Shown here piece after piece: positions 7,474-56,821 of a stretch of DNA of 64,000 bases. Positions within the stretch are counted from its first letter, which is position 1, and each line of letters opens with the position of its first letter. Source of the DNA: a virus. The translations under genes were made by a program, and so were the position numbers. The stretch lies in IMG/VR virus record IMGVR_UViG_3300034200_001454, positions 1 to 64,000 of that record. One strand, given 5' to 3'. Under the pieces are notes generated by a model. It worked only from the letters and a program-made list of their open reading frames with translations, was not told the origin of the DNA and did no database searches.

Positions 7474-9606
7474 ATGGAAGGCGAAGCAATTGATTTAGGG
7501 CATGCCACTGCTGGTGGCATTCGCGCGGACGGCCTTCAAAACGTGCTGATTGGCATGGGCACTGGTCGGGACAAGGCGCAATACACTAAAACCACTGCCA
7601 CTGTCTTCCTTGCCCAGGAAGAACTGGAAAATCTCTATGGCGAATGGCTTCCCCGCCGCATTGTTGATATCTACGCAGACCAGGCCACGAGAAAGGGCTT
7701 TAAAGTGTTGTTTGGTGGTGATGGTGTAAGAGCCGAGGAAGTACAAGGCATTGAGCAAACGATTGAAGACCTCTACATTCTCGAACACCTCAACCTCGCA
7801 GCCAAGAACTCCCGCCTTTACGGGGGTGCTTGTCTACTTCTTTTTATTGACGATGGGCGTCCCGCTTACATGCCTGTCGATAAACGCAACATACGTCGTA
7901 TCGAAGAAATTGAATGCCTTGATCGCTGGCAAATTGCCCCAGTTATCAACGAAGAAAACTTATACGACTATTCAAAAGCCACTTATTATCAGATCATCTC
8001 TGGAGATTTAATTAACGAGCCGACGCTTTCTTATATTCACAAAGATAGGATTTTGCGGTTTGATGGTGACTGGCTGCCTTATCGCGTGAGGCAGCGTAAC
8101 TATGGCTGGGGCATGAGCAGTTTGCAAACTGTTTATGACAGTTTCCGTCATTATTGGACTGGCCTCAATTCTGCTGCCACTCTCCTCACTGAGTTTGATA
8201 TTTTTGTTCATAAAGTGAGGGGCTTGGCGGCGATGCTTGCCGCTGGCAAAGAAAGCTCCATTCGTGATCGTTTGCAAGTGAACGACATGAGCAAGAGCAT
8301 TTATCGCGGCTATGCGATTGATGCCGAAAAAGAAGAGCTTGAATTTATTAGTCGTAATTTCGGGGGCATTGGAGAAATCCTTGAAAAGCTGCGCGTAGAT
8401 ATTATTGGCGCCAGCAAAATTCCTCACACTGTGTTATTTGGTGAAAGCCCGAGCGGACTTGGTTCTACGGGGCGTAGTGAAGAGCGTGATTTCGCCAAGA
8501 TGCTTTCTGATTATCAAAGCGTCCATTTCAAGCGTCCGATGAAGAAACTGATGGAATACATCATGCTGAGCAAGGAGGGTCCAACAAAAGGAGAAATGCC
8601 CGATTCATGGCGCATCTCCTTTAATCCATTGTTTGAGCTTAATGAGCGCGAAATGGCTGACGTGCGGGCTCGTGTGGCGGCTGTAGACGGCCGTTACATC
8701 CAGTTGGGTGTACTGAGTCCCAAGGAAGTGGCAGATGCCCGTTACGGCGGTTCTGAGTGGAGCATGGAACTCATGCTCGATCCGTCCGTTGTTCGCGAGC
8801 TGCCCCAAACTGCAGGTTCCACTCAAGGTGGGGGTGGTTCCACTCAATCTGGGGGTGGAAAGCTAGCAGTGTCGCCAGGCGGTCGCGATCCAATGAACGA
8901 AGAGAATGGCACGCTTCCCATGGATGGAAGCCGGGAAGTGGAAGACAGCCGGGAAGACAGCCGGGAAGACAGCCGGGAAGACAGCGCTGGTTTATATCTT
9001 CCGCGTGACTTAGAGAAAGTTCGTGGCGACGTAACGTTCACTGACAAAGAGCTGCATTCTCGTGCCGTAAGCGCCGCTAAGGCTAAGTTCAAAGTATGGC
9101 CATCTGCTTATGCAAGTGGCTATGTTGTGCAACAGTACAAGCAAATGTACAAGAAAAAGCATGGTTCATTGAGCGGGGCTTTTAAAAGCGATGAAGGTGA
9201 GTTGCACGCCGATGATCTTGATAAATGGTTCAAGGAAAAATGGGTGAGGATTGGCGCTAACGGCGAAATTCTTGGGCCTTGCGGTGCTCGTGAAGAAAAA
9301 GAAGGCAAGCCCAAATGCCTTCCTCAGGCAAAAGCTCAAGCGATGAGCAAAGAAGAGCGTCAAACCATTGTGCGTCGTAAGCGTGCAGCAGACCCCGATC
9401 CCGAGCGGAAAGGACCAGCAAAAATGGTCAGCAGCAAAACAGACGCAATTGAGCCATTGAAAACCAGCGGGCTCATTCTTGCTGATATCGACGAGGCTTC
9501 TCTGATTGATGAAGAAGACATTTCCGCTGCATTGACTCAATGGAAAGAAGAAGCGCCCGAGCGTTTCAAGGATATTCTGGAGGCAGAGGATGTCCAGCCT
9601 CAATGA
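7474..9606 (+). CDS. portal protein (DUF1073-like) with C-terminal DUF5872-like extension
   Basis: 710 residues. The first 440 or so match the DUF1073 type of portal: YGEWLPRRIVDIYADQATRK, SRLYGGACLLLF, then IPHTVLFGESPSGLGSTGRSEERDF. It forms the dodecameric DNA gate at the head vertex. A low-complexity linker follows (GSTQGGGGSTQSGGG and three DSRE repeats). The extra C-terminal part (about residues 510-660) has FKVWPSAYASGYVVQQYK, DLDKWFKEKWVRI and RRKRAAD, which resembles the DUF5872 family usually seen as a separate small phage protein. Start ATG 7474. The stop overlaps the next gene by 17 bases. Confidence 0.85.
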   Translation: MEGEAIDLGHATAGGIRADGLQNVLIGMGTGRDKAQYTKTTATVFLAQEELENLYGEWLPRRIVDIYADQATRKGFKVLFGGDGVRAEEVQGIEQTIEDLYILEHLNLAAKNSRLYGGACLLLFIDDGRPAYMPVDKRNIRRIEEIECLDRWQIAPVINEENLYDYSKATYYQIISGDLINEPTLSYIHKDRILRFDGDWLPYRVRQRNYGWGMSSLQTVYDSFRHYWTGLNSAATLLTEFDIFVHKVRGLAAMLAAGKESSIRDRLQVNDMSKSIYRGYAIDAEKEELEFISRNFGGIGEILEKLRVDIIGASKIPHTVLFGESPSGLGSTGRSEERDFAKMLSDYQSVHFKRPMKKLMEYIMLSKEGPTKGEMPDSWRISFNPLFELNEREMADVRARVAAVDGRYIQLGVLSPKEVADARYGGSEWSMELMLDPSVVRELPQTAGSTQGGGGSTQSGGGKLAVSPGGRDPMNEENGTLPMDGSREVEDSREDSREDSREDSAGLYLPRDLEKVRGDVTFTDKELHSRAVSAAKAKFKVWPSAYASGYVVQQYKQMYKKKHGSLSGAFKSDEGELHADDLDKWFKEKWVRIGANGEILGPCGAREEKEGKPKCLPQAKAQAMSKEERQTIVRRKRAADPDPERKGPAKMVSSKTDAIEPLKTSGLILADIDEASLIDEEDISAALTQWKEEAPERFKDILEAEDVQPQ
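8941..8985 (+). repeat. 12-bp tandem repeat in the portal linker
   Basis: GAAGACAGCCGG occurs three times in tandem plus a partial fourth copy, encoding EDSR units. The repeat number is likely to vary between strains. It lies in the linker between the portal and the C-terminal domain. Confidence 0.9.
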
Positions 9607-10321: not shown

Positions 10322-10861
10322 ATGACTAAGTATAGGCAATTGCCGTCAATGGAGCGATTGGCGGAAGTGTTCAGAGTCGATGAAGACGGTCGTCTTTACT
10401 GGAAAGCCAAGCCGAATCCAAGTGTTAACGTTTCACGGATTAGCATCGGCCAGCAAATTACAACAACAAATAGCCAAGGATATTTAACTGTTGGCCTTGA
10501 TGGTGGCACATATCGCGTGCATCGCATTGTTTGGGCATTGATTCACAACGAAGATCCGGGGCAGTTTCAAGTAGACCACATTAATGGAGACAGAACTGAC
10601 AATCGTCCTTCAAACTTGCGTTTATGTGACAACGGCCAAAATCAGCTTAATTCAAAAATGCGTATAACCAATACCAGCGGGATCCGAGGAGTCCATCTAG
10701 TCATGTCTCCAAAAGACAGGCCATGGGCTGCATCCTACAGAAGTAAACATTTAGGCTATTTTGCGACAAAAGAAGATGCCGCAAAGGCAGTCATGGATGC
10801 CGTGGGACTATGCGACAACAAGGATTTTTATCAGACACAAGCGTTAGAAATGGTTGATTGA
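10322..10861 (+). CDS. HNH homing endonuclease with AP2-like domain
   Basis: 179 residues. The HNH core is YRVHRIVWALIH, then VDHINGDRTDNRPSNLRL (about residues 60-100). The C-terminal part is an AP2-type DNA-binding domain (SGIRGV, PWAASYR, HLGYFATKEDAAKA). This combination is typical of free-standing phage homing endonucleases that cut related phage genomes. It lies between the gpF-like gene and the sugar cluster, preceded by a -10 box and leader hairpin. Its end nearly abuts the next gene. Confidence 0.93.
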   Translation: MTKYRQLPSMERLAEVFRVDEDGRLYWKAKPNPSVNVSRISIGQQITTTNSQGYLTVGLDGGTYRVHRIVWALIHNEDPGQFQVDHINGDRTDNRPSNLRLCDNGQNQLNSKMRITNTSGIRGVHLVMSPKDRPWAASYRSKHLGYFATKEDAAKAVMDAVGLCDNKDFYQTQALEMVD

Positions 10862-10862
10862 A

Positions 10863-11585
10863 ATGGACGTTTTAGTGGGAAGCACTGGCCTTATTGGACA
10901 AGTGTTGCGCGAGGCGCATGGATTTGGCGCCTGCTTCCATTCCAAAAACATTCACGAGGCTCCACTGCTTAAGGAGCCCATTGAAAGGCTGTACTTGGCT
11001 TGCATGCCAGCGGAGAAATGGAAAGCAAACGCAGCGCCGCTGGATGATTTCAACAATATGAACAGCATCATTCAAAACATCCGACATCTCCCAAGCCCAG
11101 CGGAAGTCATTGTTTATTCAACGATTGACGTGCATGGACAAACTGCCTATTATTCAGGCCGCACGCCTGAGATTTTTGCTATTGATTACGGCACTAATCG
11201 CTATATCTTTGAAATGCTTATAAAGGCGACATTCCATGATTCAGTGGTGACAATCATCCGCCTTCCTGCATTGTTTCATCGCCTTATTAAAAAGAATATT
11301 CTGTTTGACCTATTAACGAACAACAACGTGGAGAAGATTAATATCAATTCTGCTTATCAATGGTATTGCTTGGATGATTTATGGAAGGACACAAAAAAGG
11401 CAATCAGTGGTACTACTAATCAATTTTTCCCTGCTCCCATTGAAACCGCTGAAATTATTCGGCGCTTCTTCCCCGAAGCAAATGTAAGCACTGGTCCTCG
11501 TATTGAATACAACATCGGACCACATACGACAACAAGGCATGAGACGATGAAGAAGCTGGAGGCTTTTATCAATGCTTGGAATTAG
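10863..11585 (+). CDS. NAD(P)-binding SDR-like epimerase/dehydratase
   Basis: 240-residue Rossmann-fold protein of the extended SDR type. The nucleotide-binding motif is VGSTGLIG (residues 4-11). A YSTIDVHG strand and a YGTNRYIFE segment follow; the latter would supply the catalytic Tyr region, although the classical YxxxK spacing is not exact. Likely acts on nucleotide-sugars (inference from neighbours). ATG 10863 is preferred over TTG 10854. The gene follows an HNH gene and overlaps the next by 14 bases. Reaction unknown. Confidence 0.75.
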   Translation: MDVLVGSTGLIGQVLREAHGFGACFHSKNIHEAPLLKEPIERLYLACMPAEKWKANAAPLDDFNNMNSIIQNIRHLPSPAEVIVYSTIDVHGQTAYYSGRTPEIFAIDYGTNRYIFEMLIKATFHDSVVTIIRLPALFHRLIKKNILFDLLTNNNVEKININSAYQWYCLDDLWKDTKKAISGTTNQFFPAPIETAEIIRRFFPEANVSTGPRIEYNIGPHTTTRHETMKKLEAFINAWN

Positions 11586-12312
11586 TGCTATCGGCTGGAA
11601 GGATGAGGAAGAGGAGCAAATCTTAAGCGCAAATGCTGGGGCGTTTAACGTGCTAGAAATTATTCCTGCACGCATCTTCGCTCAAAACAAAGACTACGCC
11701 GATATCGCGAAAGAATATCGCGAAAGCTATGGGATATGGGCCTATTCGGCGCAGGCTTTATTCTTTCAAAGTAACGTGCAAAGCTTTGAAGACACTGCGG
11801 CAGTGTCTGAGCATTTATTGAAAGTGATCAGCCTTGGCTCCCTCATGGGAATCAAGCGTTTCGTGCTGGGAAGCCCCAGCTTGAGAAAGGGAAGTCCTTC
11901 CTGCTTGATGAACGTCTTGAAGCGTATGGATGCAGTATTGGACGCGAATGGAGCCATTCTTTGCATCGAGCCTGTAGCAAAATGCTACGGAGGGTCCTAT
12001 TTCTTTACAGTTAACGAGATTGTCAATCACATTGATTTCTTTAATCTCAAGAATGTTAAGACAATGCTTGATACTAATAATGCTTGGCTTCAAGGCGATA
12101 GTCCTAAAAAGCTACTGAATCATTATTGGCCGTACATTGCTCATGTGCATATTAGCGACACAGACAATGGACCACTGCTAAATAAATACGAACACAAACA
12201 AATTAAGAGAATGCTTGATGGCATTAACTATGAGGGCGCGATTGTGCGCGAGCTATTCCAGGCTAAAAAGAATATGCGTGACTATCCGCTATTCCGCAGT
12301 ATCTACGCTTGA
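11572..12312 (+). CDS. xylose isomerase-like TIM-barrel protein
   Basis: 246 residues resembling the sugar phosphate isomerase/epimerase (AP endonuclease 2) superfamily. Metal-ligand-like stretches are CIEPVAKCYGG (Glu), MLDTNNAW (Asp/Asn) and HVHISDTD (His/Asp). It starts inside the preceding SDR gene (14-base overlap), implying co-expression and perhaps sequential steps on one sugar. It ends in a 10-base convergent overlap with the FAD gene on the other strand. Substrate unknown. Confidence 0.75.
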   Translation: MLGISAIGWKDEEEEQILSANAGAFNVLEIIPARIFAQNKDYADIAKEYRESYGIWAYSAQALFFQSNVQSFEDTAAVSEHLLKVISLGSLMGIKRFVLGSPSLRKGSPSCLMNVLKRMDAVLDANGAILCIEPVAKCYGGSYFFTVNEIVNHIDFFNLKNVKTMLDTNNAWLQGDSPKKLLNHYWPYIAHVHISDTDNGPLLNKYEHKQIKRMLDGINYEGAIVRELFQAKKNMRDYPLFRSIYA

Positions 12313-13280
12313 GACATGGCTTCTTTTGCCATCTCTTCGATGGCATAGATGCCTTGAATTTTGCCAGTGTAAAAAGACAGCAGATTATCCTGTTGCCTAA
12401 AAATGGGAGTGCGTTGAGCGCTAGCATTCTTGCATTTTGCTTTAATTGATACCACGGGAAATGCATATTTAAAATAGTCGTAAAAATCGGGCCAATAGCG
12501 CATCACGTGACCTTCAATTAAGTGGCGTCCATAATTCATTTGACCATAGTTTTTATCAAAGCAATTCATTTCTTTTTGCTCAATAATGCCAAGCTTCACG
12601 TGGCTTAACGAGAACATTGAAGATCCGTACGGATAGATAGAAAACAGTTCCCCATCAATAAAAGTTAGAGCGCCAAATGGGGGCGTTTTGATGGGACGAT
12701 AAACAAACATTGCCACTGCTTCAAAATAGTCTCCATTAAGAATTGGTAACAAGGAATTGTTTGTGCAATCAATGACGAAATCATAATCTCGCTTCAACAA
12801 GGTAAGCGATTTTTCATTGATTTTTTCCTTCCTCACGATGGGAGCCAGTAGTTCGCCAAAATACTTACCAGTGGCAGTTGGAGAAATATATTTTTCAATG
12901 GTATGCAGAAGCAGCGAAGAATAATTAAGAAAACTTGCATCGGCCTCCGCGTGTGGCCAATCTTTAAAAATAAGGCGAATCGTTTCTGCGTCCAACAAGC
13001 TTTCGTCTTCTGACACCGCATAGAAATTATTCTGCACGTTTTCCGTTAGATGGCCATAGTCCATCATGAACTGTTCAAACGTATTCCTGCACAACATGCG
13101 CGTGGCATGGTTCCTGGCATAGTGATAGCCATAGTGCAATCGGTTCTGATTGATTAATGATGCTTCGGAGATGAGCATTTCATTGCGCTCAAACAAAGTC
13201 ACATCGGCTTCGTTCATCAAGCGTGAAGCTAAATGGCACCCCGTCCAGCCACCACCAACAATTGCAATCTTGAGCGCCAT
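12303..13280 (-). CDS. FAD-dependent oxidoreductase
   Basis: 325 residues. The N-terminus IAIVGGGWTGCHLASRL is a clear dinucleotide-binding GxGxxG variant, followed by an acidic residue (FERNE) that binds the ribose of FAD. The rest (VIDCTNNS, YPYGSSMFSLSH) resembles DAO/glycine oxidase-like or sugar-modifying flavoproteins but does not fix the substrate. The start codon overlaps the stop of the upstream glycosyltransferase-like gene (TAATG), so the two are coupled. Part of the glycan cluster. Confidence 0.8.
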   Translation of the reverse strand: MALKIAIVGGGWTGCHLASRLMNEADVTLFERNEMLISEASLINQNRLHYGYHYARNHATRMLCRNTFEQFMMDYGHLTENVQNNFYAVSEDESLLDAETIRLIFKDWPHAEADASFLNYSSLLLHTIEKYISPTATGKYFGELLAPIVRKEKINEKSLTLLKRDYDFVIDCTNNSLLPILNGDYFEAVAMFVYRPIKTPPFGALTFIDGELFSIYPYGSSMFSLSHVKLGIIEQKEMNCFDKNYGQMNYGRHLIEGHVMRYWPDFYDYFKYAFPVVSIKAKCKNASAQRTPIFRQQDNLLSFYTGKIQGIYAIEEMAKEAMSQA

Positions 13281-13969
13281 TAAATATCAATGCAAAGTGT
13301 TGGCTGAACTCCCTGCCAATTTGACTTGGCCTTAAACAGGTCCAACTGTGGGAAGTATTCTACGCGGCGAGGCGTGCCGGTTCCATACACATCAGCATGC
13401 CCTTGATAGTTCCATTCATCAGCGCCATGCTTATCGGGGTGGTAAAGGCCAGTTGGCGAGTCCTGCAGCTTCCAGAGCATGTAGTCCTCGTTAGGCACTC
13501 CCCATTGCTTCCATGCTTGCAATGCCTGTGGCGAGCTGTCCATGTTTTTAATCGCCGTGAGGCGGTCTTTGTGGCGCATGAGATAGTCCATGCTGTAAAG
13601 GCCGATGCTCATTGATGGCGTGTGCTTCATTGCCACCTTTTCAAAAGCTTCTGGCGGCTCGTAGACGAGGCTTTTAAATGCTGGTCCCGCAATGCATGTG
13701 TCATGAAGCAGGAACCAAAACGGGCTTGTGAGATTGTGTTCGACAATTTCAATGAGGGGCGTATATTCAAATGAATTCTGAGGGGTGCAAATCATTGGCA
13801 CATCTCCATAGTGATCAATGCGCCAATTTTCTTGTCCACCATTGACAATCAAAATTTCGTTGGTGCCAATCCCAGCGCGAGTTAGGGAAGGGATGATTGT
13901 TTTAAGCGTATGGGCGGCGAACTTGTTACAGGTGCTAATGCAAAAACGCACAGAAGATGGTGGCAGCAT
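13280..13969 (-). CDS. glycosyltransferase-like protein (GT-A type)
   Basis: 229 residues. The start SSVRFCISTCNKFAAHTLKTII and the segment EILIVNGGQENW look like a nucleotide-sugar-binding GT-A fold, and FWFLLHDTCIAGP resembles the D-x-x metal region of family 2-like enzymes. The classical DxD is not visible, so the assignment is tentative. It is the first gene of a two-gene minus-strand operon and is divergent from the GT4 gene, with 62 bases between the starts. Confidence 0.55.
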   Translation of the reverse strand: MLPPSSVRFCISTCNKFAAHTLKTIIPSLTRAGIGTNEILIVNGGQENWRIDHYGDVPMICTPQNSFEYTPLIEIVEHNLTSPFWFLLHDTCIAGPAFKSLVYEPPEAFEKVAMKHTPSMSIGLYSMDYLMRHKDRLTAIKNMDSSPQALQAWKQWGVPNEDYMLWKLQDSPTGLYHPDKHGADEWNYQGHADVYGTGTPRRVEYFPQLDLFKAKSNWQGVQPTLCIDI

Positions 13970-14031
13970 GATTTTCCCCGTGTGCCGTCAGTATAGAAGC
14001 TGTTTATGATGACGAAGATTTATAGGCAGTT

Positions 14032-15255
14032 ATGGCACGTATTCTTTACTGCGGCGACGCGGCGGTGCAAACGGGGTTTGGGAGGGTAGCCGAATACTTG
14101 ATTCCGGCATTGTCGAGAGAGCACGAAGTTCATGTGATGGCAACAAACTGGCACGGAGACTCTTGTGATATGCAGCAGTATTGCAAGATGTATCCAGCCA
14201 TGGCGCATGGCCAGGATCCGTTTGGTTCTCATCGTATTTCGTCCGTTATTCAAGCCGTCAAGCCTGATCTGGTGTGGGTGACAAACGATATTTGGATTGC
14301 TATCAATTTATGGCAGCAGGCGAAGCCGCTCAAGGAGAAGATGGGCTTCAAATGGTTTGTCTACACTCCCATTGATTCTTACGGTCTATTTCCTGAGCTG
14401 AAAGCTCAAATGGAAGATTGGGACGGTCTTGCCACTTATACGCAATTCGCCGAAAAAGAACTGCGCTTGATGGGCTACGACAAGCCTATTGATATTATTG
14501 GCCATGGCACTGACTTCGAGAAATTCTTTCCGCTCGACAAACAACAATGCAGGAAAGAGCTTGGCGTGCCAGAAGACGTATTTATTGTCTTTAATGGCAA
14601 TAGGAATCAGCCACGAAAGCGTATTGACCTCACGCTCAAAGCATTTATCAAATTTGCCAAAGACAAAGACGATGCGCGTCTGTGGCTAAATATGGGCAGC
14701 AAAGACCTGGGATGGGAAGTCATTCCCTTGTTTAAGCGCATTGCTCGCGACGAAGGTTTCGATGCAACAAGCAAGCTTATCTTGACAAGCCCCCATTTCT
14801 CCGTAGACAATTGCCTCACTATTGAACAGCTCAACAAGGTGTATAACGCTGCTGACATTGGCATCAACACTTGCATTGGTGAAGGGTGGGGCCTAGTCAA
14901 TAGCGAGCATGGTTCCGTTGGTGTGGCGCAAGTTGTGCCTGACCATACGAGCTTGGCTGAGATCTTCGATGAGGTGCCTCGTATTCAATGCAATGCTTCC
15001 GAGACTGACCGCAATTATGGTCTTGAGCGTCTGCTTCCTGATCCCGAGAGTGCTGCAGAAATCTTGTCGTATTACTACGAAAACCGCAATGCCCTAAAGA
15101 AAGATGGGCAATGGTGTTACAAGCGTCTGCGCGAAGAACCGTTCACTTGGTCTTATATTCAGCAGCAGCTTCTTGACGTGGTGGAACGCACTCTTAATGT
15201 AAAACCGCCCGCTCCTGAATTTAAAGGTTTTGGCACTCCCGCAAAAATTGTTTGA
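14032..15255 (+). CDS. glycosyltransferase family 4
   Basis: 407 residues with the two-domain GT-B layout. N-terminal: ILYCGDAAVQTGFGRVAEYL. C-terminal nucleotide-sugar domain: FNGNRNQPRKRIDLTLKAF, then the EGWGLVNSEH segment (family E-x7-E motif, about residues 283-292). It transfers a sugar from a nucleotide donor to an acceptor glycan in the cytoplasm. It begins a plus-strand group with the following two glyco-genes and overlaps the next by a few bases. Confidence 0.9.
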   Translation: MARILYCGDAAVQTGFGRVAEYLIPALSREHEVHVMATNWHGDSCDMQQYCKMYPAMAHGQDPFGSHRISSVIQAVKPDLVWVTNDIWIAINLWQQAKPLKEKMGFKWFVYTPIDSYGLFPELKAQMEDWDGLATYTQFAEKELRLMGYDKPIDIIGHGTDFEKFFPLDKQQCRKELGVPEDVFIVFNGNRNQPRKRIDLTLKAFIKFAKDKDDARLWLNMGSKDLGWEVIPLFKRIARDEGFDATSKLILTSPHFSVDNCLTIEQLNKVYNAADIGINTCIGEGWGLVNSEHGSVGVAQVVPDHTSLAEIFDEVPRIQCNASETDRNYGLERLLPDPESAAEILSYYYENRNALKKDGQWCYKRLREEPFTWSYIQQQLLDVVERTLNVKPPAPEFKGFGTPAKIV

Positions 15256-15257
15256 TC

Positions 15258-15974
15258 ATGCACGTCTCTCAAATCTTTCTGTCCAGTGATCCATCGGAAG
15301 AGCTTAGTCCTTTTCTGAAACATGCCACTGGCACCATTGATGCCTGCTTTCCAGATGCAAAGCATAAGATTTATAGCAACGAGGAACTACGTTCTTTCAT
15401 CGCTGATAACTATGGAGAAGAAGTGGTCTGGGCATATGACACGCTTAAGCCTTTTTCTTACAAAGCGGATCTCGGTCGATTCTGTTTGCTGAACAAGCTT
15501 GGTGGCTGGTACTTTGATATTGGCGTGAGGGCTTTTAATGCCGTGGATCTTGGACCACGAATTAAATTCTTGGCATTTCGTGATATTCAGCGCTTCAGTT
15601 ATACAAGCTGGGCATGTGCTACGACAGTGCTTTATTCCCAGCCAGATAACTCTGCATTGCAAACCGCAATTGAAATGATCGTAGCAAATTGCATTGAACA
15701 ATACTATGGCATCACTCCATTGTGCCCCACTGGTCCCACGCTGCTTGGGAAAGCTTTGGCAGCAAATGGCAGTCAAGCCGATTTTATCTATGGCGACTAC
15801 CTTGAGCTAACGCCTACACACGGCCAAAAGAATAGGGCCTTTGTGCTCCCCGATGGCACGATCATGGCGTGGAGTAAGCCTGCTGGCGGTGGCGACTTGA
15901 CTGGGCTTGGCGCCAAGGGCGTCAACAATTACAATGAGCTGTGGCAAGCCCGTAAGGTGTATGGAGATGGCTGA
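15258..15974 (+). CDS. GT32-like glycosyltransferase with altered DxD
   Basis: 238 residues. KADLGRFCLLNKLGGWYFDIGV matches in layout the region of GT32/capsular polysaccharide transferases that normally reads GGxYxDxD, but the second Asp is Gly (FDIG). TGPTLLGKAL also fits the family. Whether the metal site works is uncertain. ATG 15258 is used; its region overlaps the preceding stop (TGATC). It overlaps the next gene by 14 bases. Confidence 0.7.
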   Translation: MHVSQIFLSSDPSEELSPFLKHATGTIDACFPDAKHKIYSNEELRSFIADNYGEEVVWAYDTLKPFSYKADLGRFCLLNKLGGWYFDIGVRAFNAVDLGPRIKFLAFRDIQRFSYTSWACATTVLYSQPDNSALQTAIEMIVANCIEQYYGITPLCPTGPTLLGKALAANGSQADFIYGDYLELTPTHGQKNRAFVLPDGTIMAWSKPAGGGDLTGLGAKGVNNYNELWQARKVYGDG

Positions 15975-16677
15975 CAGCACCATTTATGCGGTGTGCATCC
16001 CAGGAGAGAAGGTGCGGTACACGGCCAGGTCTCGCATTGTTCCCATCATGGGAGGAAGCTATGCGCTGAGCAAGGAAGAGCGCGAAAGTCTTCGCGCCGA
16101 AGGCTACGTTTTTGATGATGAAAATGCTGCGCTTTCTCCGTTCAACAATCGCTGGGGAGAGCTTTCTTGCGTTCATTGGATGATTAACAATGCAAAAGAG
16201 CCCAATCTTGGTAATGCGCAGTATCGACGCAATTGGCTAGAGCCGGAAGCTGAATGGTACTGCCCAGAAACTTTGTACGTACCAGAACCTGCTCAGTTTT
16301 CTTGCACGCTTGAGCAACAGTTCTATGGTGGTCATTCTGCTTTCAATGCGCCAGCAATCACTCGCAAATTAGCAGACGAGGGTAAATGGATTTTTACGCG
16401 CGAGGAGATTGATAAGATCTGGGCGCAATCTTCCTTTATTGGCTGCAATATGGCACGCGGGCCAAGGCACTCTTATTTGCGCTTGATGACAACATTGTTT
16501 GCTGGGCTTGTCCCAATTTGGCGTGAAAACAAAGAGCATTTTCTTTCCATTGAAGGCTACGACAAGCGTGCAATTGCTTTCATTGCTGAACGCTTAATTA
16601 CTGGCATGGTCTTATGTAGGGATAGAATCTTGCCGGGCGTAAAAATTGCTACGGCTCCGATAGGATTTATTAATTAA
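15961..16677 (+). CDS. DUF4422 protein (capsule/glycan type)
   Basis: 238 residues. MIYAV-like start (STIYAVCIPGEK) and the motif SPFNNRWGELSCVHWMINN, with NAQYRRNW, are characteristic of DUF4422, a family found in polysaccharide biosynthesis loci and often described as a glycosyltransferase. Two starts are possible, ATG 15961 and ATG 15967. Both overlap the preceding gene. It closes the glycan cluster. Confidence 0.75.
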   Translation: MEMADSTIYAVCIPGEKVRYTARSRIVPIMGGSYALSKEERESLRAEGYVFDDENAALSPFNNRWGELSCVHWMINNAKEPNLGNAQYRRNWLEPEAEWYCPETLYVPEPAQFSCTLEQQFYGGHSAFNAPAITRKLADEGKWIFTREEIDKIWAQSSFIGCNMARGPRHSYLRLMTTLFAGLVPIWRENKEHFLSIEGYDKRAIAFIAERLITGMVLCRDRILPGVKIATAPIGFIN

Positions 16678-16695: not shown

Positions 16696-16968
16696 ATGAC
16701 CACGAAAGAAAAGCAGGCAAAAGTTGCGAAAGTGATGCGTGAATTTAAAGCTGGCACCTTGAAGGGCAGCGATAAAAAGCCTGTGACAAATCGCAAGCAA
16801 GCAATTGCCATTGCTCTTTCGGAAGCTGGCATGAGCCGTCAAGGGAAGAGTGATGCCTACTGGGATAATTATTTCATGACTCTCATTGGAGAAGAGGAGG
16901 AGGAAGAAGAGGAAGAAGAAGAGGGTATGGAAGAGATGGAGGACGGCTCCTGTGGAAAAAAGCGCTAA
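16696..16968 (+). CDS. DUF6496-like small protein; upstream half of a frameshift fusion
   Basis: 90 residues from ATG 16696. KVAKVMREFKAGTLKGS, NRKQAIAIALSEAGMSR is the DUF6496 motif. A run of glutamates follows (E-rich, about residues 60-74) and then a short tail CGKKR. Immediately before its stop lies the heptamer AAAAAAG (16956-16962), and the -1 frame continues openly into the next gene. The normal product is this 90-residue protein. Position between the glycan cluster and the capsid protease suggests a structural or scaffolding role (inference). Confidence 0.8.
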   Translation: MTTKEKQAKVAKVMREFKAGTLKGSDKKPVTNRKQAIAIALSEAGMSRQGKSDAYWDNYFMTLIGEEEEEEEEEEEGMEEMEDGSCGKKR

Positions 16969-16994
16969 GGGGTGATGCCGAAAGCTTTGCCCCT
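16956..16994 (+). promoter_or_regulatory. candidate -1 ribosomal frameshift site
   Basis: The slippery heptamer A AAA AAG (16956-16962) is in the correct reading phase of the upstream gene. Five bases later comes a stem AGGGG (16968-16972)/CCCCT (16990-16994), extendable by wobble pairs. Heptamer, 5-base spacer and stem match the canonical bacterial frameshift design, and the upstream stop codon (16966-16968) lies at the stem base. Confidence 0.7.
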
Positions 16995-17315
16995 CCTGCC
17001 GCCGTACGATCTGCTGCCCGTCGTGGCTTGGAACTACGCAAGAAACATGGGAAAGGAGGCTTGACGACGCAGGAAGCGGGCAAGCAGGGCATCGGAAGCG
17101 GCGTTGCTCGTGCAGGCGACTTAGCCGGTGGCAGTAAGATTAGTTTTGCCACAATCAAACGCATGTCTGCATTTTTCTCTCGCCATGAAAAGAATAAAAG
17201 TGGCGGCGAAGATGATGCCGGTTACATTGCTTGGCTTCTGTGGGGCGGCGATGCTGGTAGGGCATGGGCGAATCGCATTATTAAGATGGTGGAAAGTCGC
17301 AAGAAAGACTCATGA
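16962..17315 (+). CDS. downstream half of frameshift fusion (117 codons)
   Basis: The -1 frame is open from the slippery site to TGA 17313-17315. It encodes a conserved-looking domain with no good start codon: AESFAPPAAVRSAARRGLEL, then KKHGKGGLTTQEAGKQ, then IAWLLWGGDAGRAWANRI. The best internal start is TTG 17028, but that would cut off SFAPPAAVRSAARRG, which looks part of the domain. A frameshift product would have about 206 residues. I have seen the 'SAARRGLELRKKHGKGG...LLWGGDAG' layout in other phage proteins of unknown function. Its stop overlaps the next ATG (ATGA). Confidence 0.65.
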   Translation, partial: ALRGDAESFAPPAAVRSAARRGLELRKKHGKGGLTTQEAGKQGIGSGVARAGDLAGGSKISFATIKRMSAFFSRHEKNKSGGEDDAGYIAWLLWGGDAGRAWANRIIKMVESRKKDS

Positions 17316-17623
17316 GCGAATACGTACGTGTCATCGAGGAAGAGGATGAAGGTATTGGCGTAATGAAGGCTCTGGCTATTTTGTCGGCGCACGAACATCG
17401 CAATACTTCCCTCTGGCGACTTGTTGAGCAGCAGCATTTCAAGAATGGCCGCTTAGAGGAAACGCATATTTTCGTGGAGAATCACTACGAAAAGCCAGAT
17501 GAGCATTTTACGCCCATCAAAATGCTTGTCTTTGAGGCTGAAGCCATTGCGAAATCCTACGTGATGAGCGGCATCGAAGACCAGCTTCTCGACTTGCAGG
17601 ACGATGATGATGACGAGGATTGA
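17312..17623 (+). CDS. hypothetical acidic protein (103 aa)
   Basis: 103 residues starting with ATGA overlap on the previous gene. Very acidic at both ends (EEEDEG; DDDDDED). The middle (HFKNGRLEETHIFVENHYEKPDE) has beta-like character. No family recognised. Possibly a head scaffold or accessory protein by location. Confidence 0.6.
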   Translation: MSEYVRVIEEEDEGIGVMKALAILSAHEHRNTSLWRLVEQQHFKNGRLEETHIFVENHYEKPDEHFTPIKMLVFEAEAIAKSYVMSGIEDQLLDLQDDDDDED

Positions 17624-17660: not shown

Positions 17661-17939
17661 TCAACTAATCTTTGCAATAAACGATGGGTAGCCCATTAAC
17701 CACAGCACGCTAATTCCATAGAGACCACTAAGCGTGCGAATTTGCACGCAATCTGGCGGGGCAGTTCCTTTTTCAATGCGGCAATAGGAACTTTGGCTAA
17801 TGTGCAGCTCTTTTGCCACGTCATGTTGAGTGAGCCCGGCATTAAGCCGGGCTTCTTTAATGCGACTTGCAATAAGAATACGTGCTTCCTGGTGGGGAAG
17901 TTTAAGAGCGTCTGTCGTGCTACGTGCCAAGAACATCAC
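17661..17939 (-). CDS. XRE-family helix-turn-helix regulator
   Basis: 92 residues. The HTH is RIKEARLNAGLTQHDVAKEL with recognition helix HISQSSYCRIEKG (about residues 25-57), as in Cro/C1-type proteins. It then has a short helical tail (LSGLYGISVLWLMG). It is a likely DNA-binding transcriptional regulator. It is the only minus-strand gene among the head genes here, divergent from the protease gene. Nine-base direct repeats lie in between (17968-18000). Confidence 0.85.
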   Translation of the reverse strand: MMFLARSTTDALKLPHQEARILIASRIKEARLNAGLTQHDVAKELHISQSSYCRIEKGTAPPDCVQIRTLSGLYGISVLWLMGYPSFIAKIS

Positions 17940-17967: not shown

Positions 17968-18000
17968 ATAAAGTATAACATTTGCTTCTTGATAAAGTAT
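17968..18000. repeat. 9-bp direct repeats, possible operator
   Basis: ATAAAGTAT occurs at 17968-17976 and 17992-18000, 24 bp apart between equivalent bases, in the 59-bp gap between the XRE gene and the protease gene. Two helical turns of spacing would suit cooperative binding by the adjacent XRE regulator (inference). Confidence 0.4.
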
Positions 18001-18004
18001 GAAT

Positions 18005-19198
18005 ATGAGCACCATTTCCTGCCGATACGATTTCTCTCCTATTGAGAAATACGAACTCACGCCGGAAGGTTATCTTCGGGCATGGGCTTCTATCGCACGC
18101 ACTGGCATCCAACACTACACAGATAGTGATGGTTCCATTCGTCGCGAATATCGTCCTGAAACAGAAGTGGCGTCTCCCGATAGTCTTGCTTCGTTTGCGG
18201 GCAAGGCCATCACTTCAGAACATCCGCCTGTGCTTCTCGATTCCGAGAATACTAAAGACTATCAAGTGGGCTTTAGTGGCACTGAAGTGGTGTACGACAA
18301 TGGTTTCGTCAAAGCAGTGATGACCATCACTGACGAAGACACCATCAAGCGCATCATGAAAGGCGATGCTCGTGAGGTAAGCGCGGGCTATAGGGTGAAT
18401 TATGATCCTACGCCTGGCGTTACAGAAAACGGCGAACATTACGATGGCGTCCAAAAGGAAATCATCGGCAATCACATCGCTGTTGTCCGCCGGGGCCGCG
18501 CCGGCCCGCAAGTGAAGCTCCATCTTGATAGGCAAGATGCTGCCGATCCATCTTTATTTAAAACAACTGAGGAACGTCTTATGACTGCCAAAGTCGTATT
18601 CGACGGCGCCGAGTTCGAGGTGAGTGAGGGCGTTGCTCTTGCTATCACCAAAGAACGGGAAGATGGCCGTATGTCCTACGAGGACATGAAGAAAAAGTAC
18701 GACGAACTGCAAGCCTCCGCTGCTTCCATGAAAGAAGAAATGGATGCAATGGAAAAAGAAATGAAGGGCAAGTGCGATTCCGCTGAGGGTCGCGCTGATG
18801 CTCTGGCTGAGCAGATCGAAGAACTGAAGACCGAACTGGCTGCTGCTCAAGAAATCAACCTTGATTCCATGGTTGAAGAGCGTGTGGCTCTCATCGAGAA
18901 GGCCAAGCCTGTTCTCGATAGTGCCTATGCATTCGCTGGCAAAACTGCTCGCGAAGTGATGGTTGATTCCATCAAGGCAGTGCGTGGTGATGAGCTTGAT
19001 CTTTCTGAGAAGAGCGATGACTACGTGCAGGCAATGTTCGACACTCTCTCTGAGGGTCGTTCTGACTCTGCCACCACTGATGAGCTGCGTAAAGCCGTAG
19101 CTTCCATTGCTTCTCCTGTTTCTGCGCCCTCTGCCTACATGGACATGCTGCAGAATGCTTGGAAGAAGCCCCTTTCCATCTCCAAGGAGGCTAAGTAA
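18005..19198 (+). CDS. prohead protease / scaffold (DUF2213-like)
   Basis: 397 residues. The first 200 or so match DUF2213-type prohead proteases: YELTPEGYLRAWASIAR, FAGKAITSEHPP, GDAREVSAGY, IIGNHIAVVRRGRAG (His and Ser candidates). A long acidic coiled-coil (KKKYDELQASAASMKEEMDA) follows, typical of a fused scaffold. It cleaves itself and scaffold during head maturation. ATG 18005 is used; ATG 17999 two codons earlier is equally possible. The next two genes are the decoration protein and capsid. Confidence 0.88.
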   Translation: MSTISCRYDFSPIEKYELTPEGYLRAWASIARTGIQHYTDSDGSIRREYRPETEVASPDSLASFAGKAITSEHPPVLLDSENTKDYQVGFSGTEVVYDNGFVKAVMTITDEDTIKRIMKGDAREVSAGYRVNYDPTPGVTENGEHYDGVQKEIIGNHIAVVRRGRAGPQVKLHLDRQDAADPSLFKTTEERLMTAKVVFDGAEFEVSEGVALAITKEREDGRMSYEDMKKKYDELQASAASMKEEMDAMEKEMKGKCDSAEGRADALAEQIEELKTELAAAQEINLDSMVEERVALIEKAKPVLDSAYAFAGKTAREVMVDSIKAVRGDELDLSEKSDDYVQAMFDTLSEGRSDSATTDELRKAVASIASPVSAPSAYMDMLQNAWKKPLSISKEAK

Positions 19199-19776: not shown

Positions 19777-20685
19777 ATGTCTGAATTCCGTATGGATGAC
19801 GCGGGTCTGTTCCTTGAGCGTCAGCTTGAGTACATCCGCCCCCAAGTGTTTGAAGTGCAGTATGCGGATATTAAATATCCGACCATTCTGCCTGTTACTA
19901 GCGAAGCTGGTCCCGGTGCCCAGACCTTCACCTATCGCATCATGGACTCCACTGGTGAGTTCAAGCTGATTGCTGATGCTGCTGATGATCTGCCTCGTGC
20001 CGACATCAGCCAAGTCGAGAAGAGCATCAACATCCGCTCTTTCGGTGGTTCTTTCGGTTATACCGTACAAGAACTGCGTGCTGCTCAAATGGCCAACATC
20101 GCTCTGGAGCAGCGTCGTGCTGCTGCTGTGCGCCGTGCCTATGAGGAGAAAGTGGAAGAAGTGGCTCTGTTCGGTGAGAGCACCGTGGGCCTGTCTGGTT
20201 TCTTCAACAACTCCACCGTGGATGTTGTTGCTGCTGATAAGTGGTTCACCGGTAGCGGCACCACTGCTCAGGAAATGCTTGAGCTGCTGAACTATGGCGT
20301 GACTGCCATTATCAATGGTTCCAAGATGAAGGAGCAGCCCGACACCATCCTCATGTCCTATGAGGACTATAACAAGGTGAGCACCACTCGCAACTCCGAC
20401 TCTTCGGACGTGACCGTGCTGGAATACTTCCTGCGCACCAACCCCTACATCCGTAACGTTGAGCCTATCAACCAACTGGATGCCGATAACAGCGTGCTGA
20501 ATACCAACCGCATGGTTGTGTACAAGCGTGATCCCGAGAAAGTGCAACTGCACATTCCTCAGCCGCTGGAACTCTTCCCGCCCCAACAGCGCGGCCTTGA
20601 GTTCATTGTTCCCGCTCATGCTCGTGTGGGTGGCGTGGCTCTGTACTATCCCAAGAGCGTTATCTACGTTCAAGCTTCTGCCTGA
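19777..20685 (+). CDS. major capsid protein (DUF2184-like)
   Basis: 302 residues. Characteristic segments: LEYIRPQVFEVQYADIKYP near the N-terminus, IRSFGGSFGYTVQELRAAQMA, EEVALFGESTVGLSGFFN, and a C-terminal beta region ending GGVALYYPKSVIYVQ. This is the DUF2184/encapsulin-like major capsid type, which has an HK97 fold. Preceded by a good ribosome site (AGGAGG at 19763-19768). The long open frame on the opposite strand is a shadow of this gene's biased codons. Confidence 0.92.
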   Translation: MSEFRMDDAGLFLERQLEYIRPQVFEVQYADIKYPTILPVTSEAGPGAQTFTYRIMDSTGEFKLIADAADDLPRADISQVEKSINIRSFGGSFGYTVQELRAAQMANIALEQRRAAAVRRAYEEKVEEVALFGESTVGLSGFFNNSTVDVVAADKWFTGSGTTAQEMLELLNYGVTAIINGSKMKEQPDTILMSYEDYNKVSTTRNSDSSDVTVLEYFLRTNPYIRNVEPINQLDADNSVLNTNRMVVYKRDPEKVQLHIPQPLELFPPQQRGLEFIVPAHARVGGVALYYPKSVIYVQASA

Positions 20686-23391: not shown

Positions 23392-23645
23392 ATATTGACT
23401 ATCTGTGGAGCGAAGACCGCTCTGTTCATGCCATTAATAATCAGCTTGACGGAGCGTCCATGGAGGTGGGCATCCTCTGTCTTATTTCTTGTCGAGACGA
23501 GACCATTAGAATAAGCAACGAAAATCATTCATTGCTTGTTGAAGTGCCTAAAGAATTTCGCTCTAGCAGTGAAAGGGTGAAGGTGTTCAACGCATTGTTA
23601 AACGTTCTTGATCATGAGCAAATACAGCTTCCTTCTGCAGACTAA
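23388..23645 (+). CDS. small hypothetical tail protein (85 aa)
   Basis: 85 residues, ATGA overlap with the previous gene and overlapping the start of the next by 32 bases. Moderately acidic with no motif. Located directly before the tail-assembly chaperone. Confidence 0.55.
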   Translation: MNIDYLWSEDRSVHAINNQLDGASMEVGILCLISCRDETIRISNENHSLLVEVPKEFRSSSERVKVFNALLNVLDHEQIQLPSAD

Positions 23646-24150
23646 AGCCGAAGATTATTTTGAGCTTCTTCCTGAAATTCGCATGAAGAAATATGGTGGC
23701 TGGCTTGTCGCTGAAGCAATTGAACAGGAAGAAATTAGTAAGTTGCAAAGCCAAGCTACTATTAGGGCTGTGCAACTGGCTAAGCGCATTGCCACTGCAA
23801 AGGACATTCCGCTGGACGAAGCTTTTAGTTTGCTTCAGGGAGGCGGTGGTTCCATTACTGAAGCTGAACTTCTCTCGGAATATACCGAGGAAACACTGAG
23901 CATGATCACCAGTGGCTCTTCAGTGGAGAGCACCAACGCCCGCATGGTTACTGCCTTTATTCGCTCTCGCGGTCAAGGTTTGATTGATGGCGAATGGCAA
24001 GATCTTGCGGACTGGGAATTGGATGATACTAAAAACCTTCCCCGTAAAGCCATTGCAAAAGTGGTTGAGTTTATTGCTGAAGAGCAAAATGCTGAGACGC
24101 AGGAGGCAATGGCAGCAAAAAAAGCGACGAAGAGGAATGGTCCTCAGTAG
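23614..24150 (+). CDS. tail assembly chaperone (gpG-like)
   Basis: 178 residues, helical (KYSFLLQTKAEDYFELLPEI, then IRAVQLAKRIATAKDIPLDEA). Located directly before the tape measure gene, as tail assembly chaperones always are. The end contains the slippery site A AAA AAA (24117-24123). ATG 23614 is used because TTG 23608 is weaker. Together with the -1 frame it would give a 325-residue G-T fusion, the lambda G/GT arrangement. Confidence 0.85.
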   Translation: MSKYSFLLQTKAEDYFELLPEIRMKKYGGWLVAEAIEQEEISKLQSQATIRAVQLAKRIATAKDIPLDEAFSLLQGGGGSITEAELLSEYTEETLSMITSGSSVESTNARMVTAFIRSRGQGLIDGEWQDLADWELDDTKNLPRKAIAKVVEFIAEEQNAETQEAMAAKKATKRNGPQ

Positions 24151-24590
24151 CAGAAATGCTGGAAGCGCGAGCGCGTAACCAGCTTAAAAATTTGACGGAT
24201 TGGAACGAAATCTATTTTCGGCTTTCGGCATCAGATTTTAATGACAGGCGATGGCATGCAGATCAATTTGGTTTGCAGCCATTGTCTGATATTAAGCGTG
24301 CGTTGAAATACCTTGATAAACATGACGTAGCAAAATATAATGTCCAGAGCGTTGCCATCGCCAAGCTTGGCACGATGGCGGCTGGCATGATGGCGGGACG
24401 CAAGTCCAAGGTAAAGCCAGAAGATTTCTTGCCATTTGATACCAAAGCAATTAAGAAAGATACAGGCGTTACGGATGCTAGTTTGATCGTCTTCCAGCGC
24501 TTAATGAAGACAAGGAAGATGGACGGAAGAGTTATTGCTTTACTGGCGGATGATTTGAAAGCTTTTGCTGGGCGTAATCAGGATCAATGA
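24117..24590 (+). CDS. tail assembly chaperone extension made by -1 frameshift (gpT-like)
   Basis: At GCA AAA AAA GCG the in-phase heptamer is A AAA AAA (24117-24123). Slipping back one base gives KKSDEEEWSSVAEMLEARAR and then the open frame to TGA 24588-24590. The -1 frame has no good start of its own: ATG 24156 begins six bases after the upstream stop but drops the linker. This is the standard GT arrangement, with both the short and long chaperone forms needed for tail assembly. Confidence 0.85.
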   Translation, partial: KKSDEEEWSSVAEMLEARARNQLKNLTDWNEIYFRLSASDFNDRRWHADQFGLQPLSDIKRALKYLDKHDVAKYNVQSVAIAKLGTMAAGMMAGRKSKVKPEDFLPFDTKAIKKDTGVTDASLIVFQRLMKTRKMDGRVIALLADDLKAFAGRNQDQ

Positions 24591-24623
24591 TTATAGAATG
24601 AAGACAATAACGAGCAGTTGAAG

Positions 24624-27600
24624 ATGGCAGGTCAAAATGCTGACATGACCCTTAAGGTGGGTCTTGACCTTAATTTCTTCAGGCAGGAATTACAGAAAGC
24701 ATCGTCTTCTCTTGCAGGGCAGCCGATTGATATTAATGTTCGTTTTAAGAGGAATCAGATTACTAACGAATTGCGACTGCTCAGCAATTCGCTTAGCAGG
24801 AAAACATACGATGTTGAAGTAAAAAGCACAAGCCTCGAAGCCCTGCTAAAACAAGTAAATACTTTCAAGCAAACGCTCAAAAATCTCAAGGATGAAAAGA
24901 TTGAGCTGAGCATTAATGCTTCGGCCAACATTGAAAAATTTAGCAAAGAAAAAATCCGCAAGATACGGGCGCAAATTCGCAGCGATATTGTGTCTGGGGG
25001 AGCTGGAGAAATTCAGCTTCCGACAAAACTTGCTGCGCCAAGCACACCTGCATTTATTAAGGATGTAGCCAAAAAAGTAAAAGAGCAAATTAGCGCATCA
25101 TCTGCAGAAGGCGGTATTCCCATCGCGACAAAGCTTGCATTACCCGGCATTACGGACACGCTAAAAGCTCTGCAAAAAAATCTAAACCAAAAAGATCCAC
25201 TGCGAGTAAAAGTTAGTACAACGCCGTCAATCAAAAAGGCGGATGTAACCGCATTTAAAACTGCCGTCAGTGAAAAATTCAAGAACATCACCGTAAAGGT
25301 TAGGGCTGAGCTTGACACCGCCACTACTGTCGCGCAAGTCGCTACTGCCGGACCTTCTCGTACTTTCTTGCAAGAGCTGAAAGACTTAGACAAGAGCGCT
25401 CTTCAAAATATTTATAAAGCCGCTGGCGAAGATGCGCTACTGGCGTTTGATGAAGGAATTATCAATAACAAAGCAAAAATGGCGCAAGCCTTAAGCAAGG
25501 CGGGGGAAGACGCAAGCGCCGGGTTTATTGCCGCACTTGAAAATAAAAAGAGCGCTTTGTTTAAGGCTGCAGGCGAATACGGCGGCGCCTTGCTCAGCGG
25601 TTTGAAAAAAACTCTCAAAATACAATCTCCTTCGAGGGAGATGTTTGATATTGGCGATGATGCGGGCAAAGGTTTTGAACTCGGCCTGCTGAAAGCAATG
25701 GAGTTAGCGGAGAAGTCCGCTACCAATCAAATGCGGCGGATGTTAGACCGTCTCGCTCGAATGGCGCTCATGATGGGAGGCATGAGTGCGGCGGCAATTA
25801 ACAAACAAGTTGCGCAATCAAGGGCCCTGCCCAGTGTTAATTTTCCAGCGACTGTACCACCTAGTCAGAGCATTCCTATTGGGCCATCTTCTACTGGCAG
25901 GACTCTTCCTGCTAGTCGTGCTGCCGCTGGATTGATTGGAGCTGTACAGGCTCCTGTAGGCTTACTACCAAGCGCAACAAGACAGAGTGGACTTACTACT
26001 GGCCTTGAAGCCTTAATTCAATCACTCGTTTCCCAAAGTCGCGGGAGGGGGCCGGAAGGTCCTAGTTCCATTGTTTCCATGGAGACAGGATTTATTCCTG
26101 CGATGCGCGAACGCTTTGCGAAAGCTGCGGAACGCTATTTGTTTGGCGTTGAAACGCAAGTAATGGATTTGTTCGACGCTGCGTTGAGACAAGTGGAATC
26201 TGCAGTTGATTTGCATATCGCAAAGATTCAAGGGCAGATTTCGCAAAGAATGAGAAACGCTTTTTCCGTAGTGGATCTTGGCGTGCAGGAACGACCAATG
26301 CTTCCTGGTGCCGCTACAGGACAAGAGCCTCTAATGCTGCCTTCTGCAGGCGGAACAACACCGCAAGGACAGATGCGTTTCAACGCAGTTCGCACTGGCG
26401 AAGTTATTCCTTCTACACCATTGATGCTTCCGCCCGCTGGCGGCACCACGCCTCGCAGGGAAATGCGTTTCAATGCAGTGACATCTACTGGTGGACGAGG
26501 CGGCGGTTATGTCCCTCCCGGCGGTTTCCCGGAAGAGGGCATGCTTGGCATGCTTGGTGGGCGCCAAGGTCCAGCTACGTTTATTGGTGCTGGCAGTCAA
26601 ATGGTGAAACTTAAAGCTAATTTAGATGCCACTGTTCAATCAGTAGAGCAGTTCCGCAAGTCTCAGATACCGCTAGCAGGTACCATGCAAGAGCTTGCCG
26701 GAGAATTTGGAAACGCGGCTCAGCAAGTATTGCTTTATGGAACGGCTTACAAAGCGCTTGCATTCTTTGTGGGCCTTCCTGGTCAGGCTTTGAATGCAGC
26801 AAAAAGCTTACAAACATTTAACAACCAATTAAATGCAATCACTGGAAGTTCCGAGAATGCAGATCGGGCATTTGCTTTTGTCGATAATTTAGCTGCTCGT
26901 TTTAATGTGCCACTGGAAAGTGCTCGTCAGGGATTCGTAAAACTTTACGCTTCCATGGCTCCCGCTGGTTTTAGTAGCGGTGAAATTGAAAATCTATTCA
27001 GTGGAATTAGCAAAGCATCTGCAACTCTTGGACTTAGTTCCGATAAAGTTGATCGTGTTACTTATGCCTTCTCTCAAATGGCCAGTAAAGGTCAATTGAT
27101 GAGCGAGGAAGTTAGCGGCCAATTGGGCGACGTAATCCCAGGCGCGTTGTCAATCATGGCAGAAGCTGCTCGCATGGATATTGCCACGTTCAAGAAAGCG
27201 ATGGAAGACGGCGTATTCGTTGGAGAAACCTTCAAGCAGGTAATGAGCAATGTGCCTATTGTTTTGGAAAATCGTTTTGGGAAAGGAGCCGCTAACGCCG
27301 CGAAAACTCTTCAGGGTTCGATGAACGCTCTTGCTATTTCAACGCAAAAGTTTTATGAATCTTTTGAACCCATTGTTTCTATGGGCGCAGCTTCAATTTT
27401 CCCCATCATTGCTGTTGCCATTAATGATGCAACGCAAGCAGTACAGGCATTCACTGCTGCTATGCAGGGCAATACTACTCCCGCTCAAATGCTAGAAGGC
27501 AATGCTGCTCAAATTTATGGCGTATTGCAGCAATTAAGGGAAATCTTTGTAGCCGTCGCAGGAGTTATTCAAGGTATAGCTCCAACATTGATGATCGTCG

Positions 27601-55858: not shown

Positions 55859-56821
55859 CTATGGCTTTTTTGCAACAAAAGCCTTCATGGCTTCCACCAT
55901 TGCTTCTGTTGTATCACAAGCACGCACCAAGTCAATTTCCTTGGTCATTTCTGCTTTAGTGATAACAAGCTGTTCTTCCTTCGCCCATACGGTCATCATG
56001 GCTGCTGCCACATTGCCGAATTGTTGCCAAGTCTTCACTTCAGTGGCACGGGAGAGGCCAATGGCCTCTAGAGCAGCCTTGCCAAGCGCCATGCTTGCTT
56101 TCTCATCGGCATAGCCAAATGGATTGGCCTTGCAAATGGTGGTTAGAGCAGTTTTGGCATCAAATGCTTCATCACTGGCCCCTGTTGCAGCGGCGGGAGC
56201 ATTCCCTCCTTCTCCAGCAGGCTCAGAAGGAGCTTTAGTTCCCGTTGGCGCCTTGCTTGTCCGCGCTGCTTGCTTCGGAGCCTCCTGTTGGAGCGGGAGT
56301 TTGGCCTGTCCTTTTTCATCTTCTTTGGGGATGTCCTCTCCTGCATAGAGACGCAGGCCAAGGCCGGTGAAGGTGGCAATAGCCTTTACAGCAGCACGCT
56401 GGCAGTTGTCAGAAATGGCACGACCATCAAGCTCCTTGATGGAATTGTGCTTCCTGTCCATGATCGGGAAGATCAAAGCAACAGTACGACGGCAGCCATC
56501 AGTGAGGTAGGGACGGAGATAGTAAGCGCCTGGCGTGCCAAACACCACTTCTCCAATGGTCTTCTCTTCAAAGGCCACAAAATAAGTGGGGAAATGCTCC
56601 TTCAGATAGCGATAGGCAAAAGGCCAGGACAAATAGGACAAGCCTTTGTAGTCCTTCTCGATGTGAGGACCAATATCAGGCGTGTCGTAAGCAGCCTTAA
56701 AAGCTTCAGCACTAATCTCCAGCGGAGAGAAGATGCCGTTATAACGATCCATTGTGGCTTGCTTGGCAGGGTCCATGGAAGAAAAATCAGACGGGGAATA
56801 AAGCATAAATGAATGGTTCAT
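55859..56821 (-). CDS. single-strand annealing protein (DUF1071-like SSAP)
   Basis: 320 residues. YKGLSYLSWPFAYRYLKEHF, VFGTPGAYYLRPYLTDGCRR, DRKHNSIKELDGRAISDNCQ and LGLRLYAGEDIPKED match the DUF1071/Sak-type annealing protein family. It pairs complementary strands during phage recombination. The C-terminal third is Ala-rich and then helical (ALEAIGLSRATEVKTWQQFG). It precedes no other recombination protein directly but shares the minus-strand unit with the exonuclease and SSB-like gene. Confidence 0.85.
   Translation of the reverse strand: MNHSFMLYSPSDFSSMDPAKQATMDRYNGIFSPLEISAEAFKAAYDTPDIGPHIEKDYKGLSYLSWPFAYRYLKEHFPTYFVAFEEKTIGEVVFGTPGAYYLRPYLTDGCRRTVALIFPIMDRKHNSIKELDGRAISDNCQRAAVKAIATFTGLGLRLYAGEDIPKEDEKGQAKLPLQQEAPKQAARTSKAPTGTKAPSEPAGEGGNAPAAATGASDEAFDAKTALTTICKANPFGYADEKASMALGKAALEAIGLSRATEVKTWQQFGNVAAAMMTVWAKEEQLVITKAEMTKEIDLVRACDTTEAMVEAMKAFVAKKP

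Follow-up and report, generated by a model that had tools for sequence, protein, structure and literature searches.

The locus and its two reading frames

The window (the whole stretch of 64,000 nucleotides analysed here) belongs to a tailed phage that is related to cyanophage S-CBS4. The following features lie at the locus, with the main basis of each assignment in brackets.

16696–16968, plus strand: zero-frame ORF of 90 aa, the predicted short product, with a DUF6496 domain and an acidic tail (third-position variability in frame 0)
16705–16827, plus strand: DUF6496 domain, PF20106 (profile match above cut-off)
16888–16947, plus strand: acidic poly-Glu linker between two basic domains, variable among relatives (sequence)
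16956–16962, plus strand: slippery heptamer A_AAA_AAG, in phase (canonical heptamer at all 99 loci with a -1 arrangement)
16966–16968, plus strand: zero-frame stop TAA, 3 nt past the heptamer (at most 3 nt from it at 97 of 99 loci)
16968–16994, plus strand: putative stimulatory stem-loop of 8 bp with an upper helix of 2–3 bp inside (covariation, codon bias)
16962–17315, plus strand: -1-frame ORF of 117 codons plus stop, here called the C domain, all-helical and basic, the extension of the predicted 206-aa product (codon-position variability, open frame, AlphaFold2)
17312–17623, plus strand: next gene, 103 aa, whose ATG overlaps the C-domain stop as ATGA (gene order, NTGA overlap)
17999–19198, plus strand: head maturation protease (DUF2213, phrog_530), which marks the head module (profile matches, gene order)
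19777–20685: probable capsid gene (position, S-CBS4 gp024)

The zero-frame codons at the gene end are GGA AAA AAG CGC TAA, and the protein ends with CGKKR. The heptamer thus sits one codon ahead of the stop of the 90-aa protein, and five nucleotides (16963–16967) separate it from the stem. The sequence-only reading had described the in-phase heptamer with its five-base spacer, 117 open codons in the -1 frame and products of 90 and about 206 residues. All of these are borne out by the sequence: the -1 frame runs from 16962 to the TGA at 17313–17315, and the products would be 90 and 206 aa long. The first domain, described there as DUF6496-like, matches PF20106 with an E-value of 1.7e-9 and 37.5–38.4 bits, above the curated cut-off of 24. 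Across 86 relatives, the variability of this domain at the first, second and third positions of frame 0 is 0.54, 0.40 and 1.33 bits. Since the third positions are the most variable, the DUF6496 region is coding in frame 0.

Conservation of the slippery site

Viral contigs were searched with the C domains of the window, S-CBS4, Limnohabitans phage DC31 and one divergent member. Loci from a genome scan and from phage records were added, and a script sorted them all by arrangement. Once duplicates were removed, there were 123 distinct loci in which a DUF6496 ORF sits immediately upstream of a close-form C domain. The scan of the genome collection matched only three metagenome-assembled contigs, none of them with a firm host. 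A cyanobacterial host may be supposed from the relation to S-CBS4, whose host is Synechococcus CB0101; this relation is the one indication of it.

At 99 of the 123 loci the C domain is read in frame -1 relative to the DUF6496 ORF. A canonical in-phase heptamer of the form X_XXY_YYZ is seen in the ORF overlap at every one of these 99 (A_AAA_AAG in 83, G_GGA_AAG in 12, C_CCA_AAG in 4), always exactly 15 nt ahead of the first codon of the C-domain query. Six loci also have an overlapping AAAGGGC; they are counted here under their A- or C-type heptamer, which occupies the common position. None of the 123 loci has a -1 split without a slip site. The zero-frame stop follows the heptamer directly in 7 loci, one codon later in 90 and further away in 2. 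In eight loci a -1-frame stop lies directly 5' of the heptamer; because the -1 frame is closed there, the shift is possible only on the heptamer.

In-phase heptamers of the three kinds occur four times in the 18,251 codons of the window, about one per 4,600. The chance of finding one within the last three codons is about 0.07% per locus, and it is found at an identical position at 99 of 99. On the minus strand, a further in-phase A_AAA_AAG close to a stop (about 55864–55870) can be attributed to chance; its -1 extension of 37 codons runs into a GC-rich inverted repeat.

On a C-domain tree built without the slip site itself, the kind of heptamer changes at least nine times. Because the three kinds interchange so often, it is the slipperiness that is conserved and not one particular sequence.

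The diversity of heptamers bears on two other explanations. Six consecutive A are present at 83 of the 99 sites, as would suit transcriptional slippage on the A-run as the source of the fusion. The GGGAAAG and CCCAAAG sites are at the same place and have no run long enough, and the downstream stem and its codon bias (see below) fit translation. After this comparison transcriptional slippage is rejected as highly improbable. The other alternative is that the genuine gene is one continuous ORF, and that the split reflects gene decay or a mistake in sequencing or assembly. Relatives with a continuous ORF do exist, and three loci (L039, L112 and L135) resemble homopolymer or indel variants. Against this, the same -1 offset recurs at 99 distinct loci and in the isolate S-CBS4, 16 loci have no six-A run, the stop and the stem are conserved, and both frames are under purifying selection. 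An assembly error is refuted by the G_GGA_AAG and C_CCA_AAG loci together with the isolate, and error or decay as a whole has next to no probability.

The stem-loop downstream of the site

The stem had been read as five GC pairs (16968–16972 with 16990–16994), which is wrong. The arm AGGGGUGA (16968–16975) pairs with UUGCCCCU (16987–16994) to form 8 bp, A-U and G-U pairs included, with a short upper helix inside. AGGGG is found at a fixed place past the heptamer in 85 of 88 frameshift loci, and CCCCT in 82 of 88. In the covariation alignment of 68 distinct sites, there are 32 double-sided changes in the stem. The covariation score of the stem is 0.187 versus 0.117 in shuffled alignments, no shuffle being as high, and at most 0.099 when the partners are slid. 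The clearest covarying pair is C-G in 32 sites, A-U in 22, U-G in 7 and G-U in 3. In L095, GGGAC stands opposite GUCCC.

The codons of the C domain that overlap the stem are also constrained. Arginine in the stem is encoded by AGG in 86 of 88 loci; in the remainder of the domain, AGG makes up 127 of 892 codons for this residue. The serine codon in the 3' arm is TCC in 37 of 38 cases; elsewhere in the domain TCC, the rarest serine codon, accounts for 15 of 686. The AGG bias is in part due to the overlapping zero-frame stop, which does not explain the TCC bias. Third positions in the outer four stem pairs are nearly invariant; outside the stem, their mean in the C domain is 1.26 bits. Most in-frame loci have diverged in the stem sequence (CGAGGA, CGCGGA, AGAGAC), and at one locus, L155, the slippery site is kept and the stem is lost.

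The sequence-only reading had proposed an alignment of relatives. In that alignment the heptamer, the spacing, the stem and the zero-frame stop are all conserved, the heptamer swaps keep the slipperiness, and the changes in the stem are compensatory. A structure about 5–8 nt downstream is defining for -1 sites, and the 8-bp stem is at a fixed spacing and covaries. Every defining sequence feature of a programmed -1 frameshift that was tested is present, as far as sequence can tell.

The C domain lacks an early start codon at nearly all loci

The -1 frame past the site is open in 88 of 88 loci. Its variability at the three codon positions is 0.33, 0.20 and 1.26 bits, a pattern of purifying selection, and the domain is strongly conserved in protein sequence. 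No start codon is present within its first 12 codons in 86 of 88 loci. The second domain had been called conserved-looking and devoid of a proper start, and the relatives agree with both points.

The C domain could instead be made separately, by re-initiation past the zero-frame stop or from an internal start. S-CBS4, which carries the same site, is deposited with two separate CDS, gp018 and gp019, and GTG or TTG codons occur deeper in the -1 frame at some loci. These codons are not kept as such and lie within conserved sequence, and a slippery heptamer is needless for re-initiation. Separate initiation is argued against by the lack of early starts, and it was rejected as very improbable after comparison with the relatives.

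The AlphaFold2 model of the C domain has a pLDDT of 86. The domain matches phrog_2859 (E-value 7.5e-17) over part of the 740-position profile, and profile searches found its family in neither Pfam nor NCBIfam. Neither sequence nor fold searches gave a significant relative among solved structures. N-terminal domains of lambda cI are the best fold matches; with an E-value of about 0.8 they are too weak.

Relatives with both domains in one frame

The two domains are encoded in one frame at 22 of the 123 loci. There is no slip site at the junction in 21 of them, and the other, L039, has a seven-A variant of the slip site. L112, with five A, and L135, with an indel further upstream, look like indel variants. 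These three loci may result from errors in sequencing, or they may be natural switches between the shifted and the fused form of the gene. The shifted and in-frame arrangements change at least seven times on the C-domain tree.

Since the two domains share one frame at 21 loci that have no slip site at the junction, the fusion of DUF6496 and the C domain is a real protein. Judging from their sequences, the in-frame genes show that such a protein is encoded and kept by selection. One example, L073, encodes 182 aa from an ATG start, and the AlphaFold2 model of this fusion is confident (pLDDT 87). Of the in-frame loci, 14 were examined, and these encode the fusion alone; a second DUF6496 gene is absent from the sequence covered, so the short product may not be essential.

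Relatives that lack the heptamer, or encode the second domain with a good start, had been expected by the sequence-only reading to speak against a frameshift. Such relatives exist, namely the 21 in-frame loci and phage DC31, where the domain has its own ATG. They oppose the frameshift only superficially: a -1 split that is not slippery is not among them.

The head module

Gene order around the site is conserved, protease and capsid genes included. All 90 frameshift loci have the 103-aa gene next in line, and 83 of the 90 also show the head protease, which some contigs are too short to reach. In 82 of 88 loci the stop codon of the C domain shares bases with a potential start of the next gene (ATGA in 64, GTGA in 17, TTGA in 1), and the same overlap is present at in-frame loci. 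Because its ATG overlaps this stop, the 103-aa gene is likely to be translationally coupled to the C domain.

It can be speculated that the frameshift is real and mainly regulatory. Only shifted ribosomes would reach the stop/start overlap, and the shift would set the expression of the 103-aa gene. The frequency of the NTGA overlap and the constant presence of the next gene agree with this. Such a role alone does not account for the strong conservation of the C-domain protein sequence, nor for the persistence of the fusion as a plain gene with the same overlap at in-frame loci. These two facts indicate that the fused protein matters in itself. A mainly regulatory function is unlikely, and coupling to the next gene may be an additional consequence.

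Head proteins of unrelated phages carry the C domain as a portable module (e.g., L083, 1329–2123). In Limnohabitans phage DC31, a member of a distant group, it is the N-terminus of an XkdF-type prohead protease. In phage records it lies under annotated capsid, portal and protease genes of Roseobacter, Synechococcus and haloarchaeal viruses. Predicted viral structures sharing its fold include many prohead proteases and portals. The domains in the DC31 protease and in the head proteins of Vibrio, Roseobacter and haloarchaeal viruses are the same as phrog_2859 and the C domain here by sequence or by predicted fold. In those proteins the domain is integral to a larger protein with a normal start, whereas here it would be reached only via frameshift.

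Other genes of the region were also noted. The portal protein (Phage_portal_3, 7474–9606) has a C-terminal DUF5872, another small domain on a head protein. An antisense HTH repressor-like gene lies on the minus strand at 17661–17939, between the 103-aa gene and the protease, and the S-CBS4 repressor gp021 is at the matching place. Genes at 10854–16677, inside the head module, look by eye like sugar or glycan metabolism genes, one of them glycosyltransferase-like.

Comparison with known frameshift systems

In Escherichia coli dnaX, A_AAA_AAG is followed by a 3' stem-loop. The heptamer is common to dnaX and the window and a 3' hairpin is present in both, the spacing here being five bases. The shift in dnaX shortens the protein, while the shift here would lengthen it. 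The Shine-Dalgarno-like enhancer upstream of the dnaX site has no conserved counterpart: Shine-Dalgarno-like 5-mers are present in 32 of 88 loci and are partly a by-product of the Glu-rich linker. Such an enhancer is optional in bacteria and is not defining for -1 sites.

G_GGA_AAG is the slip sequence of lambda G/GT. As in the lambda tail chaperone gpG/gpGT, a -1 shift on X_XXA_AAG, close to where a small gene ends, would yield two products, one short and one long, from a single start, and heptamers are common to both systems. The site here is in the head module upstream of the protease, among head genes and not directly upstream of the tape measure, and the protein domains are different. The window has a probable tail assembly chaperone pair elsewhere (23608–24590), with its own -1 site A_AAA_AAA at 24117–24123, immediately upstream of the tape measure gene at 24618–30827.

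Frameshifts that extend capsid proteins are known from the major head protein of Lactobacillus phage A2, 10A/10B of T3 and T7, and Listeria phage PSA (PMC5009743). They resemble the present case in that a shift in the head module adds a domain to a fraction of a structural protein. Their zero-frame product is the major capsid protein, whereas here it is the small DUF6496 protein and the capsid gene is separate. The C domain is all-helical, unlike the Ig-like domain added there, and phage PSA uses +1 whereas the shift here is -1. The site belongs to neither the chaperone nor the capsid-extension family, since the tape measure is not its neighbour and its zero-frame ORF does not encode the capsid protein.

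A search of open-licence papers on DUF6496, on cyanophage frameshifting and on frameshifting in head genes returned no report of this site. The earlier statement that no example with this domain pair is described stands for the open literature; the pair does exist as a one-frame gene in relatives.

A possible mechanism and its purpose

The most probable reading, at roughly 95%, is that this S-CBS4-related phage uses a programmed -1 ribosomal frameshift in its head module. Ribosomes translating the DUF6496 protein would reach A_AAA_AAG with the stem-loop five bases ahead. Most would terminate one codon on and release the 90-aa product, a basic domain with an acidic tail. The lysine tRNAs in the P and A sites presumably slip at the heptamer, and the fraction of ribosomes that moves back one base would continue through the C domain to give the 206-aa fusion. 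The slippage rate is presumably a useful one, both products acting in the head, and the shifted ribosomes may also feed the 103-aa gene through the overlapping stop and start. Two products from one start in the head region, as the sequence-only reading had it, are supported by the comparative evidence. Their function in the head is suggested by the gene order and by the company that the C domain keeps.

The likeliest outcome would be that a minority of the molecules of a small head-module protein bear the C domain. As other phages attach the C domain to prohead protease, portal and major capsid proteins, the likeliest purpose is that the domain is dosed onto a minority of DUF6496 molecules, which would fix the ratio of plain to bearing forms in or on the assembling head. 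The odds of this purpose being correct are about even. A wider proposal is more tentative: in a lineage of S-CBS4-related phages, the site may be a domain-dosing switch for head assembly in which the same event gates the next gene via the stop/start overlap, the dosed and fused states being converted repeatedly among relatives.

For relatives of a cyanophage isolate, the site would be a well-supported case of programmed frameshifting among head-module genes, and a widespread one. The public annotation of S-CBS4 shows two unrelated-looking genes, gp018 and gp019, at the frameshift site. Tail chaperones and capsid proteins would be joined by a further place of -1 slippage in tailed phages. With three heptamers, one stem, constant spacing and in-frame conversions, the naturally occurring slip sites could serve as a test bench for the purpose of a frameshift ratio. 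The C domain itself, as a portable part of head proteins, deserves study.
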